The translations under genes and the position numbers were made by a program. From assembly GCA_934525325.1 (NCBI GenBank), contig CAKSZE010000017.1:1-27541 (forward strand): DNA of 27,541 bases, in the 5' to 3' direction. Source of the DNA: an uncultured Faecalibacterium sp. GTDB lineage: Bacteria; Bacillota; Clostridia; Oscillospirales; Ruminococcaceae. Below are positions 2,574 to 16,636 of the stretch, in pieces (position 1 is the stretch's first letter; each line of letters opens with the position of its first letter). A model generated the notes under the pieces. That model was given only the letters and a program-made list of their open reading frames with translations, made no database searches and was not told the DNA's origin.

Positions 2574-2604
2574 AAGGAACTCCCCGCCGCACAGTAATGA
2601 TTAT

Positions 2605-2653
2605 AAAAGAAAGACACCGGACAGCCTTGCAGGCCGCCGGTGTCTTTCTTTTT
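2605..2653. terminator. Bidirectional terminator between citrate synthase and the convergent hydrolase gene
   Basis: A long stem pairs AAAAGAAAGACACCGG (2605-2620) with its complement (2637-2652). A T-rich run follows on the plus strand and another on the minus strand, so it can serve both converging transcripts. Confidence 0.85.
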
Positions 2654-2665
2654 ATAAAAATATTT

Positions 2666-3781
2666 TTATTTGATGCAGCTTGCGCAGGGGGCATAGCCTG
2701 CGGCAATGGCTTCGTCATAGCTGGAAAAGAGGACTCGGTTCTTTTCCGCAGGCAGGTTGGCGCAGGTGGGCAGATGGAACTTTTTGCTGTTCACGTTGCC
2801 GATGTAGGCCTGCTGCGCCGTGCTGGAGGACGACGGGTCGGTGGGGTTCAGCTGGCTGTCCGGCACAAAGTGCTCGGTGCCCACGGTGAAGTTCTGGCCG
2901 TCGCTGCCAATGGTGATGGTGCCCTGCAGGTCGGTGCGGTAGACGTCCACCTTTGCATCCCGCAGGATGCTCAACGCCTCCTCGTGCGGGTGGCCGTACT
3001 TGTTGCCTGTGCCGCAGGAGATGACGCCCATTTCCGGCAGGACTGCTTTCAAAAACAGGTAGCCGGTGCTGGTGCTGGAGCCGTGGTGCCCTACTTGCAG
3101 CACATCGGCTTTCAGGTTGGCACCGCTGTTTACAAGGTCGGTCTCGGCGGCCTTTTCCATGTCGCCGGTCAGCAGGAAGCTGGTGCTGCCGTAGTCGATG
3201 CGCAGCACCAGCGAGGTGTTGTTGGTGTCACTGTACCCGGTCACTGGGCCCAGCAGGGTAACGGTGGCGCTGCCCAGCGGCCAGACGGTGCCCACGGAGG
3301 GTACCTCCAATTGCAGACCTTGCTGCTGCGTATACTTGACAAAATCGTTGAAGCATTTGGTGCTGCTCTCGGTCACGGGGCTGTAAGCGTGGCCTGCCGG
3401 GAACTTTGCCATCACGGCGGCAAGCCCGCCCACATGGTCCTCGTGGGCGTGGGAGCAGAACACATATTGCAGCTGCTCCACCCCCTGCTTTTGCAGGTAG
3501 GATACCACCAGACTGCCATCGTCTACGTTGCCGCCGTCGTAGAGCAGGAAATGTCCGTCACACTCCACCAGCACGCTCAGCGCCTGCCCTACATCAATGA
3601 AGTGCATCTCAAAGGGCTGGCTTGCCCCGGTGGAGGGTTTGACGATATGGCCGCCGTCGCCGGGCAGGCTGTCACAGGCGGTAAGCCCCAGCGCCAGCAC
3701 AGCGGCCAGCGCCAGCGCAGCCAGCCGCAGGAACAGGCGGCGGGGGAATAAAGTTACTTTTTCTTCTTTCCAGTTTTCCAC
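2666..3781 (-). CDS. ComEC/Rec2-like metallo-beta-lactamase-fold lipoprotein with C-terminal Ada-type metal-binding domain
   Basis: A 371-residue protein. Residues 14-36 form a lipoprotein signal peptide ending in LTAC (Cys36), so it is probably anchored outside the membrane. A metallo-beta-lactamase domain follows: FIDVGQALSVLV, the metal ligands H111-A-H113-E-D115-H116, LTGDME and VGHHGSSTST. This is the domain attached to ComEC competence channels, but the membrane channel itself is absent. The last 45 or so residues (YIGNVNSKKFHLPTC...CASC) resemble the Ada zinc-binding domain often found on secreted nucleases and hydrolases. A nuclease or phosphodiesterase role is inferred, not shown. 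The start is GTG. The gene overlaps the upstream ygiQ-like gene by 28 bases, suggesting coupled translation. Confidence 0.85.
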   Translation of the reverse strand: MENWKEEKVTLFPRRLFLRLAALALAAVLALGLTACDSLPGDGGHIVKPSTGASQPFEMHFIDVGQALSVLVECDGHFLLYDGGNVDDGSLVVSYLQKQGVEQLQYVFCSHAHEDHVGGLAAVMAKFPAGHAYSPVTESSTKCFNDFVKYTQQQGLQLEVPSVGTVWPLGSATVTLLGPVTGYSDTNNTSLVLRIDYGSTSFLLTGDMEKAAETDLVNSGANLKADVLQVGHHGSSTSTGYLFLKAVLPEMGVISCGTGNKYGHPHEEALSILRDAKVDVYRTDLQGTITIGSDGQNFTVGTEHFVPDSQLNPTDPSSSSTAQQAYIGNVNSKKFHLPTCANLPAEKNRVLFSSYDEAIAAGYAPCASCIK

Positions 3782-5799
3782 GTTGCGTTCTCTTTCTGTT
3801 GATTATTTTTGGGTTTATGGCCCGGCGCGGAGTTGGGCGCAAAGCGTGCGCCCGGGCTGGGCTGACGGCCTGCCGGGGCAGCAGTGCGGGCATTTTTGCC
3901 GGTGCTGCGTCCCTTCTGGCTGGAATGTACGGTATAAGTGCCATCATTGTGGATGGTCACCTCGGCGCTCTCTGCCCGGCGGGCGGTGCGCTGCACGGCG
4001 CGCCGGCCTGCGGCGGGCACCAGCAGGGGAATCAGATCCTCCCGGTGGGTCAGCTGCAAGGCCTTGACCACCTTTTCCGCGTTGCGGGGCTCGTAGTATT
4101 GCAGCAGCGCACGCTGCAAGGCCTTGCCCTCGGGGGTCTTTTCCACAAACACCGGCTTGAGGGTGTAGGGGTCAAGCCCGGTATAGAACATACAGGTGCT
4201 CACAGTGCCGGGGGTGGGGTAGAAGTCCTGCACCTGCTCCGGGCGCATGTGGTTCTTATAAAGGTATTCGGCCAGATAGACCGCGTCCTTCAGGGTACTG
4301 CCCGGGTGGCTGGACATGAGGTAGGGCACCAGATACTGCTTTTTGCCCGCTTTCTTGCTCAACTCGTAGAATTTATCCTTGAACTTATTAAAGGTCTCGA
4401 TGGGCGGCTTGCCCATGTAGGCAAGGGTGTTGGGGGCGCAGTGCTCCGGGGCGACCTTCAGCTGGCCGGATACATGGTACTCTACCAGCTCCTTGAAGAA
4501 GGTATCGTCCGGGTCAGCCATCAGGTAGTCGAACCGGATGCCGCTGCGGATGAACACCTTTTTCACGCCCGGCAGCTCCCGCACCCGGCGCAGGATCTTC
4601 AGATAGTCGCTGTGGTCCACGATCATGTGGGAGCAGGTGGTGGGGGCAAGACAGTGCTTGCCGCCGGTGCACATGCCCCGCAGCATCTGCTCCCGGCAGG
4701 AGGGAAAGCGGAAGTTTGCGGTGGGGCCGCCCACATCGTGGATGTAGCCCTTGAAATCCGGCTCGTGGGTCATGCGCTCGGCTTCCTCCACGATGCTGTC
4801 GGCGCTGCGGCTGGTGACCCGCCGCCCCTGATGCAGCTGGATGGCGCAGAAGTTGCAGCCGCCGAAGCAGCCGCGGTTCTGGATGATGGAGAACTGCACC
4901 TCCCGGATGGCGGGCACGCCGCCCATGCTCTCGTAGATGGGGTGGTAGCGGCGGGTGTAGGGCAGGGCATAGACCTTGTCCAGCTCCCCGCGCACCAGCG
5001 GCTTTGCGGGGATGTTCTGCACCAGATACTTCTCGCTCTGCTTCTGCACGATGATCTGGCCGCTGACCACGTCCTGATTGTCCATCTGGATGCGGCAGGC
5101 CTTGGCATAGGCAGTCTTATCGGCGGCAACCTTTTTGAAACCGGCGCACTCCACATACCGCTGGGGCAGGTGGTCGAAATCGGTCAGGTAGCAGGTACCG
5201 TTCACGTCCGTGATGCTCTCCACCGGCTCCCCGGCGGCCAGACGGCGGGCGATCTCCACAGTCTGGTGTTCGCCCATGCCAAAGCTGATGAGATCCGCGC
5301 CGGAGTCCTCCGCGATGCTGGGCAGCACGGTGTCCAGCCAGTAGTCGTAGTGGGCAAACCGGCGCAGGCTGGCCTCCAGACCGCCTAAGATCACCGGCAG
5401 GTCGGGGTAAGCCTGCTTGGCAAGCTTGGTGTACACGGTGGCGCTGCGGTCCGGGCGGGCACCGGCCTTGCCACCGGGGGAGTATTCGTCCTCGGCACGG
5501 GGGATCTTTGCCACGGAATAGTGGCTGACCATGCTGTCCACATTGCCGCCGCCGATGAAAAAGCCGTACTTGGGCTTACCGAACCGTTTGAAGTCCTCAC
5601 AGTCGGTGTAGCGGGGCTGTGCCAGCACGCCCACCTTGTAGCCCTCGGCCTCCAGCAGGCGGCTGATGATGGCGGTGCCAAAGCTGGGGTGGTCCACATA
5701 GGCGTCACCGCCCACCACCACAAAGTCCAGCTGCTCCCAGCCCCGGGCTTCCATGTCCGCCCGGCTGATGGGAAGAAATTCGGTGTAGATCTGTTCCAT
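3754..5799 (-). CDS. ygiQ: YgiQ-family radical SAM protein (UPF0313)
   Basis: A 681-residue protein with the full YgiQ layout: an N-terminal cobalamin-binding-like region (LDFVVVGGDAYVDHPSFG, about residues 24-60), the radical SAM cysteines C311-x3-C315-x2-C318 in NRGCFGGCNFC, a long TIM-barrel region with conserved GPTANF and CSHM segments, and a basic Ala/Pro/Lys-rich tail from about residue 600. Radical SAM enzymes use a 4Fe-4S cluster to cleave S-adenosylmethionine; the substrate of YgiQ proteins is not established. The gene begins only 6 bases after the restriction endonuclease stop codon. Its weak ribosome binding site (GAGAAAG) therefore lies inside that gene's last codons, and it overlaps the hydrolase lipoprotein gene downstream. 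Confidence 0.93.
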   Translation of the reverse strand: MEQIYTEFLPISRADMEARGWEQLDFVVVGGDAYVDHPSFGTAIISRLLEAEGYKVGVLAQPRYTDCEDFKRFGKPKYGFFIGGGNVDSMVSHYSVAKIPRAEDEYSPGGKAGARPDRSATVYTKLAKQAYPDLPVILGGLEASLRRFAHYDYWLDTVLPSIAEDSGADLISFGMGEHQTVEIARRLAAGEPVESITDVNGTCYLTDFDHLPQRYVECAGFKKVAADKTAYAKACRIQMDNQDVVSGQIIVQKQSEKYLVQNIPAKPLVRGELDKVYALPYTRRYHPIYESMGGVPAIREVQFSIIQNRGCFGGCNFCAIQLHQGRRVTSRSADSIVEEAERMTHEPDFKGYIHDVGGPTANFRFPSCREQMLRGMCTGGKHCLAPTTCSHMIVDHSDYLKILRRVRELPGVKKVFIRSGIRFDYLMADPDDTFFKELVEYHVSGQLKVAPEHCAPNTLAYMGKPPIETFNKFKDKFYELSKKAGKKQYLVPYLMSSHPGSTLKDAVYLAEYLYKNHMRPEQVQDFYPTPGTVSTCMFYTGLDPYTLKPVFVEKTPEGKALQRALLQYYEPRNAEKVVKALQLTHREDLIPLLVPAAGRRAVQRTARRAESAEVTIHNDGTYTVHSSQKGRSTGKNARTAAPAGRQPSPGARFAPNSAPGHKPKNNQQKENATWKTGKKKK

Positions 5800-5804
5800 T
5801 GTTT

Positions 5805-5818
5805 ATCACTTTCTCGGT
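5805..5818. repeat. Direct repeat, ygiQ side of the restriction-modification module
   Basis: ATCACTTTCTCGGT here matches ATCACTTACTCCGT at 8213-8226 at 12 of 14 positions in the same orientation, including a perfect 7-base ATCACTT core. The copies sit at the two outer edges of the restriction-modification genes, and this one overlaps the endonuclease stop codon. It may be an insertion footprint. Confidence 0.6.
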
Positions 5819-6726
5819 CCCATGAATTTATCGCCGTTCAGATGGATCATGTGATCCGGCATTTCTGCTAACCATACTTCGGTTTCCCATGCAAGTGATT
5901 CCGAAAACTTTTTATATGTCTTAAAATCAAGAAACGCCGTTACATAAATTTTACCAGCTGTCACATTTTTGGTTAAGGCTTCTAGTTCCATAATTCTTTT
6001 GGGGGACATAGGCCCAACAGATGTTACAGCTTCAATAAAATAAATCCAATTTTTTTCGCGTGAATAAAGAACGATATCAGGCATCGTATCATGCTGTGTG
6101 ATTCCAAATCCTAGTTCACATAAACGAGCATCCTCTTTCAATAGGCTTTTCTTTTCAGTATCTCCTACATAGAGGCATTCTGTTCCTTGCGCAAATCGCG
6201 GCGCAAACTCTTCCAAAATCTCTTTCTGAAGTTGATTGTGTTTCCCTTCTGAAAAATGCAGTTTCTGGCCATTGACTTGAACCGGAATTTTTGTCAGATG
6301 GCGTTTTGATTCATACTTAGAAATCAGTGACCCCTGTCTTTGCATAAAATCGGCCAGCTTCAATTCCCAAAGATCACTCCCATAGCTTTGCAACAGCTGT
6401 AGCATCTCATCGGTTAGTCTATAGCTATATTTCGGACTGTTTGTTGCGGGTGCATAATTTTCAACAAAAGCAGCCTGCATAAAGGGCTTTACCGCTTCTT
6501 TTCGTAGTGATTCACGGGTGTTTTCAGCATACTCGACATCATAGCCAGTCTTTATCCTTACACGAATATCGTGTATCCGCATAAACTTGTTTGTTGCCTG
6601 CTCCCATTTTCCATCTTCATCAATACCAGCTAGTGCAATGAGCACATAGCAACACATATCATTTCTTTGCTCTTTGGGTACTTGTAGTGCGGTTAAAATT
6701 TTTCGTGCATCTTCCAGTTTACTCAT
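5806..6726 (-). CDS. BsuBI/PstI-family type II restriction endonuclease
   Basis: A 306-residue protein. The N-terminal part is helical and probably DNA-binding. The C-terminal part (about residues 180-300) carries the BsuBI/PstI endonuclease signature: D217 in TMPDIVLYSREK and E232 in FIEAVTSVGPMSPKR, consistent with a PD-(D/E)xK-like catalytic core. Known members cut CTGCAG; the exact specificity here is inferred from family membership. It overlaps the upstream methyltransferase gene by 4 bases (ATGA), so the two are translationally coupled. The gene is much richer in A and T than its neighbours, and its codon choice (AAA, ATT, TTT, GAA) differs too, which points to horizontal transfer. I see no truncation or frameshift. 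Confidence 0.88.
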   Translation of the reverse strand: MSKLEDARKILTALQVPKEQRNDMCCYVLIALAGIDEDGKWEQATNKFMRIHDIRVRIKTGYDVEYAENTRESLRKEAVKPFMQAAFVENYAPATNSPKYSYRLTDEMLQLLQSYGSDLWELKLADFMQRQGSLISKYESKRHLTKIPVQVNGQKLHFSEGKHNQLQKEILEEFAPRFAQGTECLYVGDTEKKSLLKEDARLCELGFGITQHDTMPDIVLYSREKNWIYFIEAVTSVGPMSPKRIMELEALTKNVTAGKIYVTAFLDFKTYKKFSESLAWETEVWLAEMPDHMIHLNGDKFMGPRK

Positions 6727-8210
6727 AGATAATTCTCCAAAATTTTATCACAGGAAGCCTCTGACATATCGTGAATCTGCAGCAAATCTCTCCCCATTGA
6801 TTCAATTGTGTTTATCGACGGTACAGGCATCGAATTTATTTCTGTGGAATTTACCTGTGTTGAGCCGTTTAAAATCCGATAGTATATATCATACATTGTA
6901 GAGTTAAAAAGCACATACAAACCATATACTGTACATTCAGAAAGATCTCGTATTCCGCTAATAAAATTCAGCTTATTCTGCGTGCTGATTTTATTATACT
7001 GCGGATTTCTTTTTGCCAAATATACGCCGCATTGTAGTCGTCGATGTTCTTCCTTCGCTGTAAAACGTTTGACGAAAAGATAATTCGTATTTTTTTGCAA
7101 CAGCCCCATTTGATTTGTAGCTAAATACTCATTTTCCTTTCCAATTGGAAAATTTACTTTTCCAGCCTGAATATGCTGCGCATAAAAAAGCGGTACTGCA
7201 CCCTCTTCTGCGTCACTGCGCAGCGCTTCTCGATTGCGAAAATCCACGGTCAATCCAGTTTTCATCTTTAAACCGATTTGTGGCAGAGTGTTTTTCCAGC
7301 AATTCAATCTTTGAAGTACGGCTGCTTCGGCTTTATTGGTTATTAGGTATATATAGTTTTCTGCTCCACTAACCACGGTGTCATAAGGCGCTCGATACTC
7401 GGTCTTATCATGAAAGTCTGCATTGTTTTTTGTTGTCGTTATTAAGATGTTTTCCGGTTTTTGAGATGTCTTTTTTGCTTTGAAAATCATGGTTTCTTGC
7501 AAAACACTTTCAATTTCGAAAACCTTATCTCGACTTTCGAATAAATGAATGTGCTCCAGTACCATCTCTTCTAAAAATTTGATCCTGAAACGTTTAAAGT
7601 ATGCACCCGATGTCCAAGAACGCGGAATGATATACACCATCTCTCCATCTTTTCTTAAATTAAATGCGCTCATCGCAGCAAATAGAAAGTAAAGATTTGG
7701 TGCCCCATAGCAAATATCCTGCATGGCTATTGCTTCCGGTGCATCTTTGGGTAACTTTATATATGGCGGATTTGCAATTACAATATCGTACTTTTGCGGA
7801 TTCAATTCTGCATAAAATGTTTCGTTGTAATTTTCTTTCTGGCTTAGGATGTAATTCTCCTGCCGTATCTCATATACAATTTTTTTTGAAAGATGCTTTT
7901 TTATCCATTCCAAGTTTGTGTGCAGAAGTTCAACGATATCCTGATTATTTTCATAACAGATCAAATGTATCTCTTCTACGGCCGGTATTTCATTTAATTT
8001 ATCCACTACTGCGGCTGTAAGCACACCAGAACCTGCACCAGGGTCAAGAATTGAAACAGCTCTTTTTTCGGAAGGAATTTCCAACAACTGCGCCATGAAA
8101 ACTGCTGTTTCCGGGCTTGTAAAGAACTGTCCGTACTTCTTTCGTTGGGCTTTCGGCATTTGCTCGACATATTTTTTTGTCGTTGCCACAACAAAATCAA
8201 CTGCTTTCAT
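6723..8210 (-). CDS. N6-adenine DNA methyltransferase of a BsuBI/PstI-type restriction-modification system
   Basis: A 495-residue methyltransferase with the SAM-binding motif DPGAGSG (residues 56-62), the adenine-methyltransferase motif NPPY (147-150), and a leader KKYGQFFTSPETAVFMA typical of Eco57I/PstI-like enzymes. The C-terminal half (about 290-490) is probably the target recognition domain. It should methylate adenine in the site cut by the adjoining endonuclease and so protect host DNA. It lies directly upstream of that gene, the safe order in which protection is made first. There is no C-protein control gene. A GGAG about 10 bases upstream supports the start at 8210. AT-rich composition contrasts sharply with ftsK 34 bases upstream and ygiQ downstream. 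Confidence 0.92.
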   Translation of the reverse strand: MKAVDFVVATTKKYVEQMPKAQRKKYGQFFTSPETAVFMAQLLEIPSEKRAVSILDPGAGSGVLTAAVVDKLNEIPAVEEIHLICYENNQDIVELLHTNLEWIKKHLSKKIVYEIRQENYILSQKENYNETFYAELNPQKYDIVIANPPYIKLPKDAPEAIAMQDICYGAPNLYFLFAAMSAFNLRKDGEMVYIIPRSWTSGAYFKRFRIKFLEEMVLEHIHLFESRDKVFEIESVLQETMIFKAKKTSQKPENILITTTKNNADFHDKTEYRAPYDTVVSGAENYIYLITNKAEAAVLQRLNCWKNTLPQIGLKMKTGLTVDFRNREALRSDAEEGAVPLFYAQHIQAGKVNFPIGKENEYLATNQMGLLQKNTNYLFVKRFTAKEEHRRLQCGVYLAKRNPQYNKISTQNKLNFISGIRDLSECTVYGLYVLFNSTMYDIYYRILNGSTQVNSTEINSMPVPSINTIESMGRDLLQIHDMSEASCDKILENYL

Positions 8211-8212
8211 AA

Positions 8213-8226
8213 ATCACTTACTCCGT
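8213..8226. repeat. Direct repeat, ftsK side of the restriction-modification module
   Basis: This copy (ATCACTTACTCCGT) pairs with 5805-5818. It lies in the 34-base gap between ftsK and the methyltransferase gene and includes that gene's probable GGAG ribosome binding site, read on the minus strand. Confidence 0.6.
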
Positions 8227-8244
8227 ACATAGTTAGAAAATATA

Positions 8245-11112
8245 TTATTCCTCCGGTTGGTTCATCTGCATTTCCAGCCACTGCTGGCGGCTGATGAGCA
8301 CGGCGCGGGGCTTTGCGCCCTCGTAGGGGCCGATGATGCTCTTTTGCTCCATCTCGTCCATGATGCGGGCGGCGCGGGCGTAGCCCAGCTTGCAGCGGCG
8401 CTGCAGCAGGCTGGTGGACGCCTGACCGGCATCGATGACCACGTCCACGGCCTGCTTGAACATGGGGTCGGAGCCTGCGTCCTCCTCGGCGTCGGCACCG
8501 CCGCCGCCCTTTTTGCCGTCCTGAATGGCGTGCTTTTCCATGGCCTCGATCATGGCCTCGTCGTACTGCACGGTGGCGCTGGATTTGATAAAGTCCAGCA
8601 CACGGCTGATCTCCTCATCCCGCACGAAGGTGCCCTGGATACGGGTGGGCTTGGGTGCGCCCACGGGCATAAAGAGCATATCGCCCTGACCCAGCAGCTT
8701 TTCTGCACCGGCACCGTCCAGAATGGTGCGGCTGTCCACCTGACTGGACACCGCAAAGGCGATGCGGCTGGGGATGTTGGCCTTGATCAGGCCGGTGATC
8801 ACGTCCACGCTGGGGCGCTGGGTAGCAACGATCAGGTGCATACCGGCGGCACGGGCTTTCTGGGCGATGCGGCAGATGGAATCCTCCACGTCTTTGCCCA
8901 CCACCATCATCAGGTCGGCCAGCTCGTCGATGATAATGGCGATGTAAGGCATCTTTTCCAGTTCCGGCTGCTCGGCAGCCAGCTTGTTGAAGGACTTGAT
9001 GTCGCGCACATTGTTCTCCGCAAACAGGCGGTAGCGGCGCTCCATCTCCTGCACCGCGCTGCCCAGTGCACCGGCGGCCTTGCGGGGCTCGGTGACCACC
9101 GGCATCAGCAGGTGGGGGATGCCGTTATACTCGGCAAGCTCTACCACCTTGGGGTCAATGAGCAGCAGCTTCACGTCCTCCGGGCTGGAGCGGAACAGCA
9201 GGCTCATGATGATGCTGTTCACGCACACGGATTTACCGCTGCCGGTGCTGCCCGCGATGAGCAGGTGGGGCATCTTGCACAGGTCGGTCACCTGTGCCAC
9301 ACCGGCAATGTCCTTGCCCAAGGCGATGCCCAGCGGCGAGGTCATGCGCAGAAAACTCTGGCTTTCAAAGATGCTGCGGATGGAAACGGCGGTCTTTTTG
9401 TGGTTGGGCACCTCGATGCCCACGGCGGGCTTGCCGGGGATGGGGGCTTCCATACGCACATCAGCCACCGCAAGGTTCAGAGCGATATCGTCTGCCAGCG
9501 AGGTGATACGGCTGATCTTTACGCCCGCCATGGGCTGCAATTCGTACCGGGTAACGGACGGCCCGCGGGAGATATCCAGCACACGGGTGCGCACGCCGAA
9601 GCTTTCCAGCGTGTCCACCAGCTTTTGGGCGTTGGCTTTCAGCTCCTCCTGTGCGCCGGGGTCGCTCTCCTCCTGCGTTTTTTCAAACAGCTCGATGGGC
9701 GGGTACTGGTACTCGTAGCTGTCCACCGGCTCGCTCTCCTCGGCGGGGGCGGTGGCGGCTGCCTGCTCGGAGACAGCGGGCTTTTCCATGGCCGCTGCCA
9801 CCAGCGAGTTGATGTCCTTTTCCTCCACCGGTTCAGCGGTGATGCTGATCCAGCCGTCCTCGTCCGGCGCAGAGCGGAACGCCACGGCGTTCTCGGCGCT
9901 CACCCGGGGCACGGCGGGCTGAATGGGCGCAGCCCCCGGCTGCGGCATCTGCGGCTGCACCACCGGCGCTGCCGGCTGGACGATGGAAGTGTCAAAAGCA
10001 GGGGCAGGGGAGGGTTCTTCCGGCTGCACAGCGTCCTTGGCAAAGAAATCTGCCGCAGCGGTGACCACCGGGTCTGCCACGATGGGCGGCGGCGTGGGCT
10101 TAGGCGCAGGGCGCAGCGGGTCCTGCCCGAAGGTGCCGCCCGGCCCGACGATCAGCGGCTCAATGGGCTCGCTGCCGCCCTCGGAAAGAGCGGTGTGGTC
10201 GGGGCCAAGGTCTACGTCAAAGGCAGCGCGGGGACGCGCAACGCTGACCCGCACCGGGGTGATGGGCGGGTCAGTGGGTGCAGGCTCCGGCTGAGCAGGG
10301 GCGGCGGGAGCGGCTTCGGGGTCTGCCGCGTCTGCTTCCATCTCCTGCGTTACCTTGTGCCCCCAGCGCAGCACACCGGACATCCAGTCCGGTACCCCCA
10401 GATGCAGCCCGGCGGGCTCGTCCTCCTCGTCCAGCGGCTCGTCCTCGGCTTCATCGTATTCCTCGTCGATCTCCCGTTCTGCCTGCCGGATGGCGGCACG
10501 CTCGGCGCGGCGGGCAGCGCTCTGCTCTGCAAAGGCAGAACCGCGGGCGTGGATGCCGCCGGTGACGGCGCACAGCCAGACCCAGACCTCGGCGGGGGTG
10601 ATGTCAAAAATGTACAGGCTGCCGCACAGCAAAAGCACGATCATGATGAGGTTTGCCGCCGGGCGTCCGCACAGCAAAAGCAGCACGCCGCCCAGCACAA
10701 AGCCCATTGCGCCGCCGGACAGCCATGCGTTGACGCCGTTGGCGTAGCAGGCGGAAAGCATTTGCAGCGCCGACAGCCCCTGCGGCTGGATATCGGAAAA
10801 CACGATGACCGTGCCGCAGACAAAGACCAGCCCCAGCACCAGCTTGAGGATGCGGGACAGCAGCTCCTCGCCCCGGGTGTACAAAACGGCCAGACAGCAC
10901 ACGGCTGCACCCAGCACAAAGCTGCCGCAGCCGAACAGCCCGAACAGTACATCATGGAGCACCCGCCATGCGGAATCGCCCTGCACAAAGGCCAGCACCA
11001 TCAGCAGCAGGCCGCCGAACAGGGTGCCAAGCCCTGCCGGGAGCCGCTGCTCTGCCTTTTTACGGCGGGCAGCAGTACGCCGTTTCGTTGATTTTCGTTT
11101 TTTCGTTGCCAT
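8245..11112 (-). CDS. ftsK: FtsK/SpoIIIE-family DNA translocase
   Basis: A 955-residue DNA pump for chromosome segregation at the division septum. It has a basic N-terminus ([12 protein letters not shown]), about four membrane segments between residues 30 and 190, and a long acidic and then Pro/Ala-rich linker (about 200-480). The motor domain follows, with Walker A GSTGSGKS (Lys627), [14 protein letters not shown] and the Walker [14 protein letters not shown]-terminal winged-helix gamma domain (about 880-945), which reads oriented chromosome motifs, ends the protein. I chose the ATG at 11112: the TTG at 11145 adds 11 residues unlike FtsK, and the basic start is typical. A promoter lies just upstream. 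TepA-like and FtsK/SpoIIIE genes are also neighbours in Bacillus. Confidence 0.95.
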
Positions 11113-11159
11113 TCTACTCTGTTCCCCAACTTCCCATAGACACAATAATTGATTCTACT

Positions 11160-14110: not shown

Positions 14111-15502
14111 ATGAGCAAGGCAATTTCTCGTCGTAACTTCCTGATGGCTACCGGCGCTGTCGGTGCTGCAGGTCTGCTGGCTGCTTGCGGCGGCAGCTCC
14201 GCTGCTTCTTCCACCGCTTCTTCCGCTGCTTCTCAGGCTCCCGCTGCTTCCGCAGATGAGAGCCTGGCTCTGTCTGACGGCCCCGTCAATCTGAGCATCA
14301 GCTGGTGGGGCGGCGACAGCCGTCACGCTGCTTACCAGAGCGCTCTGGAGGCTTTCCAGGCTGAGCACTCCAACATCACCGTGGAGCCCACCTTCGCCGC
14401 ATGGTCCGGCTGGGAAGAGAAGATGGCTGCTGCCTTCATCGCAGGCAACGCACAGGATGTCTGCCAGGTGAACTGGAACTGGCTGTACAACTACTCTGCT
14501 GACGGCAGCAAGTTCGTGGATCTGAACACCACTTCCAAGTTCATCGACCTGACCCAGTGGGATGCCGCTGCTATGGACGCTTGCTATGTGGCCAACAGCC
14601 AGCAGTGCGTGCCTGTCTCCATGACCGGCCGTATCTTCTACTGGAACATGACCACCTTTAATAAGGCTGGCATCACCGAGGTCCCCAAGTCTCTGGACGA
14701 TCTGATGGCTGCCGGTAAGGCTTTCCAGGAGAAGCTGGGCAACGATTACTACCCCATGCACCTGGGCGCATACGACCGTATGATCCTGATGGTGTTCTAC
14801 CTCGAGTCCAAGTACGGCAAGGACTGGGCAGATCCCACTACCTCCACCCTGAACTACACCGAGGAGGAGATCGCTGAGGGTCTGGCCTTCATCAAGAGCC
14901 TGGTGGACAACCACGTCATGATGAACCTGAAGACCTACTACTCTGCAAACTCCGATACCGCTACCCACCAGTCCAACGAGTGGATCACCGGTAAGATCGC
15001 AGGCATCTTCGAGTGGGATTCCGCTGCAAGCAAGTACTCCTCCGCTCTGGACGACAGCAACAAGGACGGCTTCACCGTCGGCGAAGAGATCAAGTTCGGC
15101 GACAACAACGGCGGCTTCTCCAAGGTGTCCATGGGTCTGGCTATCACCAAGACCTGCAAGAACGTTGCTGAGGCTGCTACCCTGATCAACTTCCTGCTGA
15201 ACGAGGAGAAGGGTGCTTCCATCATGGGTTCCGAGTGCGGCATCCCCGCTTCCAAGGCTGGTCTGGCTGCTGCTCAGGCTGCCGGCGCTGTCAAGGATCT
15301 GGTTGCTGATGCAAACGCCAAGGTCCTGGCTTTCACCACCAACAAGCTGGATCCCCTGTTCGAGAACAACGACCTGAAGGCTTCCGGCACCGGCATCTAT
15401 CAGGAAGTGTTCGATACCGTTGACTACGACGGCGTTGCCGGCGCAGACGTTGTTGACACCCTGCTGGACGGCATGGAGTCTGTTGGCTACACCATCGGCT
15501 AA
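14111..15502 (+). CDS. Extracellular solute-binding lipoprotein of a carbohydrate ABC transporter
   Basis: A 463-residue family 1 sugar-binding protein. The leader SRRNFLMATGAVGAAGLLAAC combines a twin-arginine motif (residues 6-11) with a lipobox (LLAAC, Cys26), followed by a Ser/Ala-rich linker that would hold the binding domain off the membrane. The mature part opens with VNLSISWWGGDSRHAAYQ, typical of the family. The two permease genes downstream complete an oligosaccharide importer. Pectic oligosaccharides are the likely cargo because GH28 and GH105 genes follow. Codon use is strongly biased (GCT, CTG, ACC, TCC), as in highly expressed genes. AGGAGGAG about 8 bases upstream fixes the ATG at 14111. 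A terminator directly follows. Confidence 0.93.
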   Translation: MSKAISRRNFLMATGAVGAAGLLAACGGSSAASSTASSAASQAPAASADESLALSDGPVNLSISWWGGDSRHAAYQSALEAFQAEHSNITVEPTFAAWSGWEEKMAAAFIAGNAQDVCQVNWNWLYNYSADGSKFVDLNTTSKFIDLTQWDAAAMDACYVANSQQCVPVSMTGRIFYWNMTTFNKAGITEVPKSLDDLMAAGKAFQEKLGNDYYPMHLGAYDRMILMVFYLESKYGKDWADPTTSTLNYTEEEIAEGLAFIKSLVDNHVMMNLKTYYSANSDTATHQSNEWITGKIAGIFEWDSAASKYSSALDDSNKDGFTVGEEIKFGDNNGGFSKVSMGLAITKTCKNVAEAATLINFLLNEEKGASIMGSECGIPASKAGLAAAQAAGAVKDLVADANAKVLAFTTNKLDPLFENNDLKASGTGIYQEVFDTVDYDGVAGADVVDTLLDGMESVGYTIG

Positions 15503-15568
15503 GTTCCATTTTTGAGTGCCGTCGTGTGCGGTCACGCACAGAAAAGGGCACCCTTTGACTGAATTTGA

Positions 15569-15606
15569 GGGGCACCTGCCGCCCGACCGGCAGATGCCCC
15601 TTTTTT
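15569..15606 (+). terminator. Terminator between the solute-binding protein and permease genes
   Basis: A 13-position stem with one C-A mismatch (15569-15581 with 15588-15600), a 6-base loop and six T residues. Because the permease genes lack a clear promoter of their own, it probably lets a fraction of transcripts through and so gives more binding protein than permease. A TTGACA at 15629-15634 is followed by no good -10. Confidence 0.85.
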
Positions 15607-15706
15607 GTCAGAGATATATTACAAAATCTTGACAAAGTTGTATCCAGTCTGTTACCCCTTCGTCCGTCTCATGCTCCGAAATTCCTTAAAAAGGAGGATT
15701 TCCCAG

Positions 15707-16636
15707 ATGAAAGAAAGCAATGCTCCCGCCGTCGGGCGCACCCCGTTCCAGAAGTGGCTGGACAAGTATCAGGGCCTGTTTTATCTGATCCCCTGGATCA
15801 TCGGCTTCGTCGTCTTTAAGGCAGTTCCCTTCGGTCAGTCGCTGTACTACAGCTTCACCGATATGAACTTCTTCAAGAGCGGCACCCAGTTCGTTGGTCT
15901 GACCAACTACATCACGGCCTTTACCACCACCAAGATCACCAAGGCGCTGATCATCACCTTCAAGTACGCTTTCATCACCGTGCCTCTGAAGCTGGTCTTT
16001 GCGCTGTTCATCGCATACATCCTGAACTTCAAGATCGCATGCGTCAACCTGTTCCGTACTGTGTACTACATCCCCTCCATTCTGGGCGGCTCTGTTGCCA
16101 TCGCCGTTCTGTGGAAGGCTGTGTTCAGTGTGGACGGCCTGCTCAACACCGTTCTGCGCGCTGTCACCTTTGGTCTGGTGCAGGGCCCCGAGTGGCTGTC
16201 TGACCCCAGCTATGCGCTGTGGATCATCTGCTTCCTGCGCATCTGGCAGTTCGGTTCTGCCATGGTGCTGTTCCTGGCCGCTCTGAAGGGCGTGCCTGCC
16301 GACCTGTACGAGGCCGCCACCATTGATGGTGCCGGCAAGTGGCGTCAGTTCTTCTCCATCACCGTTCCGATGATCACCCCCATCATCTTCTACAACCTGG
16401 TCACTCAGATCTGCCAGGCTTTCCAGGAGTTCAACGGCCCCTACATCATCACCAACGGTGGTCCCCGTGGTTCCACTACCCTGATCTCCCTGCTGGTTTA
16501 CAACTACGCATTCAAGTCCTACGACATGGGCATGGCTTCTGCTCTGGCATGGATCATGTTCATCATCGTCTGCGTCCTGACGATCATTGCGTTCACCAGC
16601 CAGAAGAAGTGGGTCTACTACTCGGATGAAAGGTAA
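15707..16636 (+). CDS. Carbohydrate ABC transporter permease, MalF/UgpA type
   Basis: A 309-residue membrane protein with about six transmembrane helices; the first follows FQKWLDKYQGLFYLIPWIIGF. The EAA loop EAATIDGAGKWRQFFSITVP (about residues 202-221), which docks on the ATPase, is intact. I chose the ATG at 15707 because AAGGAGGATT lies just upstream; the longer open frame to 15605 has no ribosome binding site and runs back into the terminator. The gene ends 10 bases before the second permease. No ATPase gene is present, as is common for sugar importers of this family that share an MsmX-like ATPase. Confidence 0.93.
   Translation: MKESNAPAVGRTPFQKWLDKYQGLFYLIPWIIGFVVFKAVPFGQSLYYSFTDMNFFKSGTQFVGLTNYITAFTTTKITKALIITFKYAFITVPLKLVFALFIAYILNFKIACVNLFRTVYYIPSILGGSVAIAVLWKAVFSVDGLLNTVLRAVTFGLVQGPEWLSDPSYALWIICFLRIWQFGSAMVLFLAALKGVPADLYEAATIDGAGKWRQFFSITVPMITPIIFYNLVTQICQAFQEFNGPYIITNGGPRGSTTLISLLVYNYAFKSYDMGMASALAWIMFIIVCVLTIIAFTSQKKWVYYSDER

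Follow-up and report, generated by a model that had tools for sequence, protein, structure and literature searches.

The ftsK-ygiQ junction of Faecalibacterium looks like a docking site for unrelated restriction-modification pairs

In a Faecalibacterium prausnitzii-like genome, a restriction-modification (R-M) operon lies between the core genes ftsK and ygiQ. Our findings suggest that this operon probably replaced the ftsK-ygiQ leader, that the junction recurrently receives unrelated R-M pairs without the help of an integrase, and that an imperfect 14-bp direct repeat at the edges of the module is irrelevant to the process. The junction looks like an integrase-free R-M docking site, i.e. a new site of an already known kind. 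The identity of the genes, the empty sites, the module boundaries, the other occupants and their orientation were all observed directly. A repeat picked out by eye gives way to a testable statement, namely that one Faecalibacterium junction repeatedly receives unrelated restriction systems that bring no recombinase gene with them. If the site holds in strain collections, it would show where R-M barriers to DNA transfer into this inhabitant of the gut may sit, and it would offer a small and clean case for studying how bare R-M pairs move and are expressed.

The R-M module and the empty site

The window, which is the whole stretch of 27,541 nucleotides analysed here, is part of an F. prausnitzii-like genome; its YgiQ shares 99% identity with the one of F. 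prausnitzii ATCC 27768 (L049). Between ftsK and ygiQ lies a complete-looking type II R-M operon made up of a PstI/BsuBI-type nuclease and an N6 methyltransferase (Table 1). The methyltransferase gene precedes that of the endonuclease, whose start is overlapped by ATGA. The endonuclease matches the BsuBI/PstI domain PF06616 (E 3.6e-61) and the N-terminal HTH domain PF17728 (E 2.3e-33), both spanning nearly the whole length of the protein, as well as the PADLOC model REase_II (E 3.4e-87) and the SdaI structure PDB 2ixs (E 1.6e-50). The methyltransferase matches PF07669 (E 1.1e-16), PF02384 (E 1.7e-10) and PADLOC MTase_II (E 2.2e-106). With both endonuclease domains and an adjacent N6 methyltransferase, the module appears to be organized like the PstI/BsuBI (SdaI) systems, among which SdaI is the relative with a solved structure. 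PstI recognizes CTGCAG. No sign that this sequence is avoided was seen, as 16 sites occur in the 27.5-kb window and four relatives have 7-10 in 19.9 kb, a comparison that says little.

Table 1. Coordinates of the module, its repeat copies and the flanking genes in the window.
Feature	Position	Strand	Evidence or content
ygiQ, radical SAM protein, core gene downstream of the putative docking site	3754..5799	-	PF08497 E 8.9e-123
Left 14-mer copy	5805..5818	+	Endonuclease Pro-Arg-Lys-stop codons plus one base on either side
Type II restriction endonuclease, PstI/BsuBI (SdaI)-type, 306 aa	5806..6726	-	PF06616, PF17728, PADLOC REase_II, SdaI PDB 2ixs
N6-adenine DNA methyltransferase, 495 aa	6723..8210	-	PF07669, PF02384, PADLOC MTase_II
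Methyltransferase leader, 34 nt, from the ftsK stop codon to the methyltransferase ATG, GGAG ribosome-binding site inside	8211..8244	-	Sequence
Right 14-mer copy	8213..8226	+	Within the methyltransferase leader
ftsK/spoIIIE DNA translocase ORF (coordinates of the ORF, start codon provisional), core gene upstream of the putative docking site	8245..11145	-	PF01580 E 7.9e-67, PF17854, PF09397

The original prediction had described an AT-rich R-M pair set cleanly between the GC-rich ftsK and ygiQ genes and free of any integrase or transposase, and both statements hold. The GC content of the module is 38.9% versus 63.4% on the ftsK side and 65.6% on the ygiQ side, and the interval from ftsK to ygiQ contains R-M genes only, in the window as well as in loci L040, L041 and L042, with no integrase or transposase gene among them.

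None of the 31 genus genomes matched PF06616; matches were obtained in 6 of the 297 genomes of the family and in 8 of the 394 of the order, several of these being fragments. PF07669, the type of the window methyltransferase, occurred in 0 of the 29 genus junctions read. Relatives of the endonuclease with 92-99% identity exist among the 120 matches listed. On plasmids, 147 records contained relatives, the best-ranked full-length one being 55% identical and one further record falling within the 60-80% identity band; three phage records were 37.5-47% identical and one viral contig (L157) 58%. Carriage of the module by a phage or plasmid was also considered, and no vehicle was identified among these plasmid, phage and viral records.

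The empty site was read from a genus sample comprising one genome per species. ygiQ was located in 30 of the 31 genomes, and the junction was readable in 29 (all except G019 and G026), 27 of them from the first loci (26 module-free junctions and that of G007) and those of G009 and G004 from longer pieces. The module-free junctions span 22-206 bp. In the near relatives G018, G014 and G030 the sites are compact, the ftsK TAA being followed by TAAAGGAGCATT and then by the ygiQ ATG; in G001, the nearest genome by shared words, the spacer measures 203 bp and contains inverted repeats. Homology of the window to its four nearest genomes ends at position 5793, in ygiQ codon 3, and restarts at 8243-8245, at the ftsK stop, which indicates that the module replaced the leader together with a small number of variable codons at the start of ygiQ. 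Read from these alignments, the event appears as an insertion with deletion and not as a duplication. In the bins that adjoin the module, the flanks are 97.6-100% identical to these four genomes. No foreign tract was found beside the module in this comparison, neither a short one nor a long one enclosing it, and recombination through the flanks is therefore not directly visible.

In several genomes the ftsK-ygiQ spacer is about 160-206 bp long (L129, which is G001, L005 and L006) and in some of them contains inverted repeats by eye, so that the spacer may be a preferred place for small insertions too.

The 14-bp repeat at the module edges

The two 14-mers at the edges read ATCACTTTCTCGGT on the left and ATCACTTACTCCGT on the right, both on the plus strand and in the same orientation, and are identical at 12 of 14 positions with a perfect core ATCACTT. 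In transcription sense, the copy in the methyltransferase leader is ACGGAGTAAGTGAT and that at the endonuclease end ACCGAGAAAGTGAT. The original prediction was exact in the places, orientation and identity of the two copies, including the 7-base core, and also in assigning the endonuclease stop to one copy and the methyltransferase ribosome-binding site to the other: the left copy includes the stop codon at 5806-5808, and the right copy contains the GGAG and stops 2 nt short of the methyltransferase ATG. In first-order Markov simulations, a match of at least 12 of 14 arose between 60-nt edge windows in 1.0% of 800 runs and between 100-nt edge windows in 3.0% of 400, and with the length left free the ungapped score was equalled or bettered in 17.5% of 200 simulations (P 0.175). 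None of these figures takes into account that the repeat had been selected by eye and that each copy immediately precedes a start codon. As a string of letters the repeat is real, and it is not convincingly above chance.

The endonuclease terminates in Gly-Pro-Arg-Lys-stop. Among the 20 relatives examined out of 120 listed, the exact GPRK ending is present in 13, and GPR was found by reading within the last ten residues in 19. The leaders of homologues from other genera are different ones, as seen in six loci from the family set that were compared for leaders and ends. Since the left copy encodes the end of the endonuclease and the right copy belongs to the methyltransferase leader, both copies most likely arrived with the module.

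These observations bear on the mechanism proposed earlier, according to which the insertion duplicated the ribosome-binding region of ygiQ and left behind a direct repeat that could allow precise loss. The match of 12 of 14 between the edges, with P 0.01-0.03 for a fixed 14-mer, would agree with such a duplication, but the signature expected of it, an empty site with a single copy of the repeat, was looked for in the 26 module-free junctions and not found. None of them contains a copy, the best matches reaching 7-9 of 14, and the near empty leaders read TAAAGGAGCATT. In addition, the left copy is endonuclease coding sequence, the support fades to P 0.175 once the length is free, and no comparable repeat occurs at the other three R-M junctions (G009, G004 and G007). 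We consider the duplication highly improbable; the repeat is not an insertion scar and plays no part. Inverted repeats above chance were likewise absent from the module ends (best P 0.805 for the window, 0.185-0.930 for the other three modules). Of the results that the original prediction had named as refuting, neither was seen: no module-free relative keeps both copies, and the relatives do not all carry the module with a neighbour-like base composition.

Other occupants of the junction

Other R-M pairs occupy the ftsK-ygiQ junction in 3 of the 29 readable genus genomes, G009, G004 and G007. In G009 and G004 the pair consists of a C5 methyltransferase and an NgoMIV-type endonuclease (E 3.4e-139 and 4.1e-125), in G007 of a BglII-type endonuclease (E 1.4e-42) and an MT-A70 methyltransferase. 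The gene order in G007 is reversed relative to the window module, and methyltransferase-first is thus not a rule of the site. PADLOC assigned the NgoMIV-type nucleases to REase_II, ranked Druantia DruM above MTase_II for the C5 methyltransferases, and gave no match at 1e-10 for the BglII-type endonuclease of G007. The four modules, that of the window included, run in the same direction as the genes on either side, and their GC content is 39-46% inside flanks of 62-67%. The idea that other cargo at the same site would point to an integration hot spot is borne out by these unrelated pairs, and all gene-sized cargo found at ftsK-ygiQ junctions of the genus is R-M.

In the tree, the window, a group of G004, G009 and G015, and G007 fall into separate clades. 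Three unrelated types in separate clades indicate at least three gains. The G004 and G009 pairs, which are 86% identical in the methyltransferase and 64% in the endonuclease and have unlike leaders, may have descended from one gain; in G015, a member of the same clade, the junction is empty.

Twelve adjacent junctions of the window, ftsK-ygiQ included, were measured across relatives. At nine of the 11 others the length was 303 bp or less in every genome read, between 6 and 26 per junction. The remaining two are the gltA-MBL junction between citrate synthase and the next gene (window 2574-2665), with 98 bp in the window by the measure applied to all junctions versus 542-702 bp in three near relatives, and the tdk-binding protein junction, which is long (470-1071 bp) in all 13 relatives read. 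PF09015 occurs in 3 of the 31 genus genomes, two of these at the ftsK-ygiQ junction, and PF09195 exceeds the cut-off in 3 of 31, one at the junction. As PF06616, PF09015 and PF09195 were picked because of the junction, counting C5 and MT-A70 methyltransferases is less biased. The genus has 37 C5 genes (47 rows, consolidated by eye) plus 16 MT-A70 genes, a total of 53 from which the many weak Eco57I family matches, not countable as genes, were left out. Three of the 53 lie at the ftsK-ygiQ junction versus about 0.02 expected if genes were spread uniformly over an assumed 2,600 junctions per genome. The corresponding Poisson P for two or more at the junction is near 2e-4, an optimistic estimate because it ignores that defence genes cluster.

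The four occupied junctions could still be one-off acquisitions that coincide in a permissive spacer, in which case the site would not be special. An occupancy of just 3 of 29, the small inverted-repeat insertions that the same spacer also accepts, and the presence of the same endonuclease families elsewhere (NgoMIV in G002; BglII in G023 and G006) would all agree with coincidence. We nevertheless regard it as unlikely, given that three unrelated R-M types share one junction, that the gene-sized cargo there is R-M throughout, and that the uniform model predicts so few C5 and MT-A70 methyltransferases at this place. Another explanation would be that an unrecognised mobile element, or a recombinase acting from elsewhere, targets ftsK-ygiQ and delivers the R-M cargo. 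Repeated use of one site and the sharp boundaries at the ftsK stop and the ygiQ start are what such an enzyme might produce, but no terminal direct or inverted repeat above chance is common to the four modules, no extra gene is present between ftsK and ygiQ in any of them, and the spacers on both sides of the R-M pairs vary between occupants. An external recombinase is very unlikely on this evidence.

Beyond the genus sample, 80 loci were fetched, 68 of which contained matches to both ftsK and ygiQ, encoded on one strand; the 12 without an ftsK match were left out. The adjacency of both genes in 68 loci indicates that the pair is old. One of the 68 (L049) is F. prausnitzii by title, and among the 67 outside the genus the spacer between the matches exceeded 500 bp in seven. 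The longer ORFs of these seven loci include a 4-alpha-glucanotransferase, a TraX-like protein, an alpha/beta hydrolase, an acetyltransferase and unknowns, and 0 of 8 matched a PADLOC defence model at E 0.001.

Arrival, expression and comparable sites

Taken together, a docking site at ftsK-ygiQ would work as follows. An incoming pair, nearly bare coding sequence and codirectional with ftsK, would arrive either by end joining at gene edges or through recombination around the core genes on either side, with no dedicated recombinase. In this way an R-M operon would have replaced the short leader in one F. prausnitzii-like lineage, and three unrelated R-M types would have docked in three separate clades of the genus. 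No match to a promoter consensus was found in the 34-nt leader, and the 2.7-kb region scanned held 4 matches versus 5.9 expected. Read-through from ftsK would be the likeliest source of transcript given the lack of a match in the leader, and the pair is probably transcribed in this manner. Having the methylase first and the overlapping nuclease second would be a sensible order for establishment: the methylase would protect host sites, and the nuclease would cut foreign DNA. A bolder version, tentative at best, is that the junction serves as a genus-specific parking place in which promoterless type II R-M pairs are swapped as operon cassettes, the expression of each new arrival being tied to transcription of ftsK, whose translocase product handles the chromosome during division. 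If true, this coupling could explain how an R-M system that lacks a control gene of its own settles safely in a new host, a long-standing question.

Places of this kind have been described. Integrase-free hot spots between core genes (PMC5635113) resemble the present junction in their conserved core flanks, changing cargo and lack of a recognisable mobile element. The ftsK-ygiQ cargo differs in being single two-gene R-M pairs. As to raised recombination of the flanking core genes, what was seen here is no foreign tract beside the module and one between-species tract 7 kb away. In the E. coli immigration control region, R-M systems alternate between the fixed genes yjiA and yjiN (PMC12707154), again at a fixed chromosomal place and with no mobilising gene at the anchor. 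The yjiA-yjiN region has clusters in which type I and type IV systems predominate and is occupied far more often, whereas the occupants of ftsK-ygiQ are small type II pairs flanked by genes that run in one direction. Insertion of R-M units with target duplications, either short or of about 100 bp, is also on record (PMC3874152, PMC3031569); these are chromosomal R-M units without a transposase gene as well, and the window module differs from them in that the empty site has no repeat copy and the ends are not inverted above chance. Among the literature matches listed, there was no report of an ftsK-ygiQ site or of Faecalibacterium R-M hot spots.

Exchange between species is visible elsewhere in the window. 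In the sugar-transport region at 15.2-16.4 kb (15200-16400), 7 kb from the module, identity is 96-99% to G029/G031 versus 70-93% to the four nearest genomes, which probably reflects short-tract recombination between species. The NgoMIV-type pair of G002, which sits at another locus, shares DNA homology with that of G009 that begins right at the methyltransferase ATG and goes no further than the endonuclease stop. This would fit a bare coding unit of transfer, although faster divergence of the spacers would look the same.

The nearest relatives within the NgoMIV-type pairs (L040, L041 and L144) differ by gene, the methylase of G009 being closest to that of G004 (86%) and its nuclease to that of G002 (85%), which hints at the exchange of single genes. 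A second R-M place may exist next to what reads as a HAD-type phosphatase gene, where G023 carries a BglII-type pair (L145, 5717-7071). In G006, apparently the same place (L146, 4859-5927) holds a fragmented endonuclease together with an intact MT-A70 domain.
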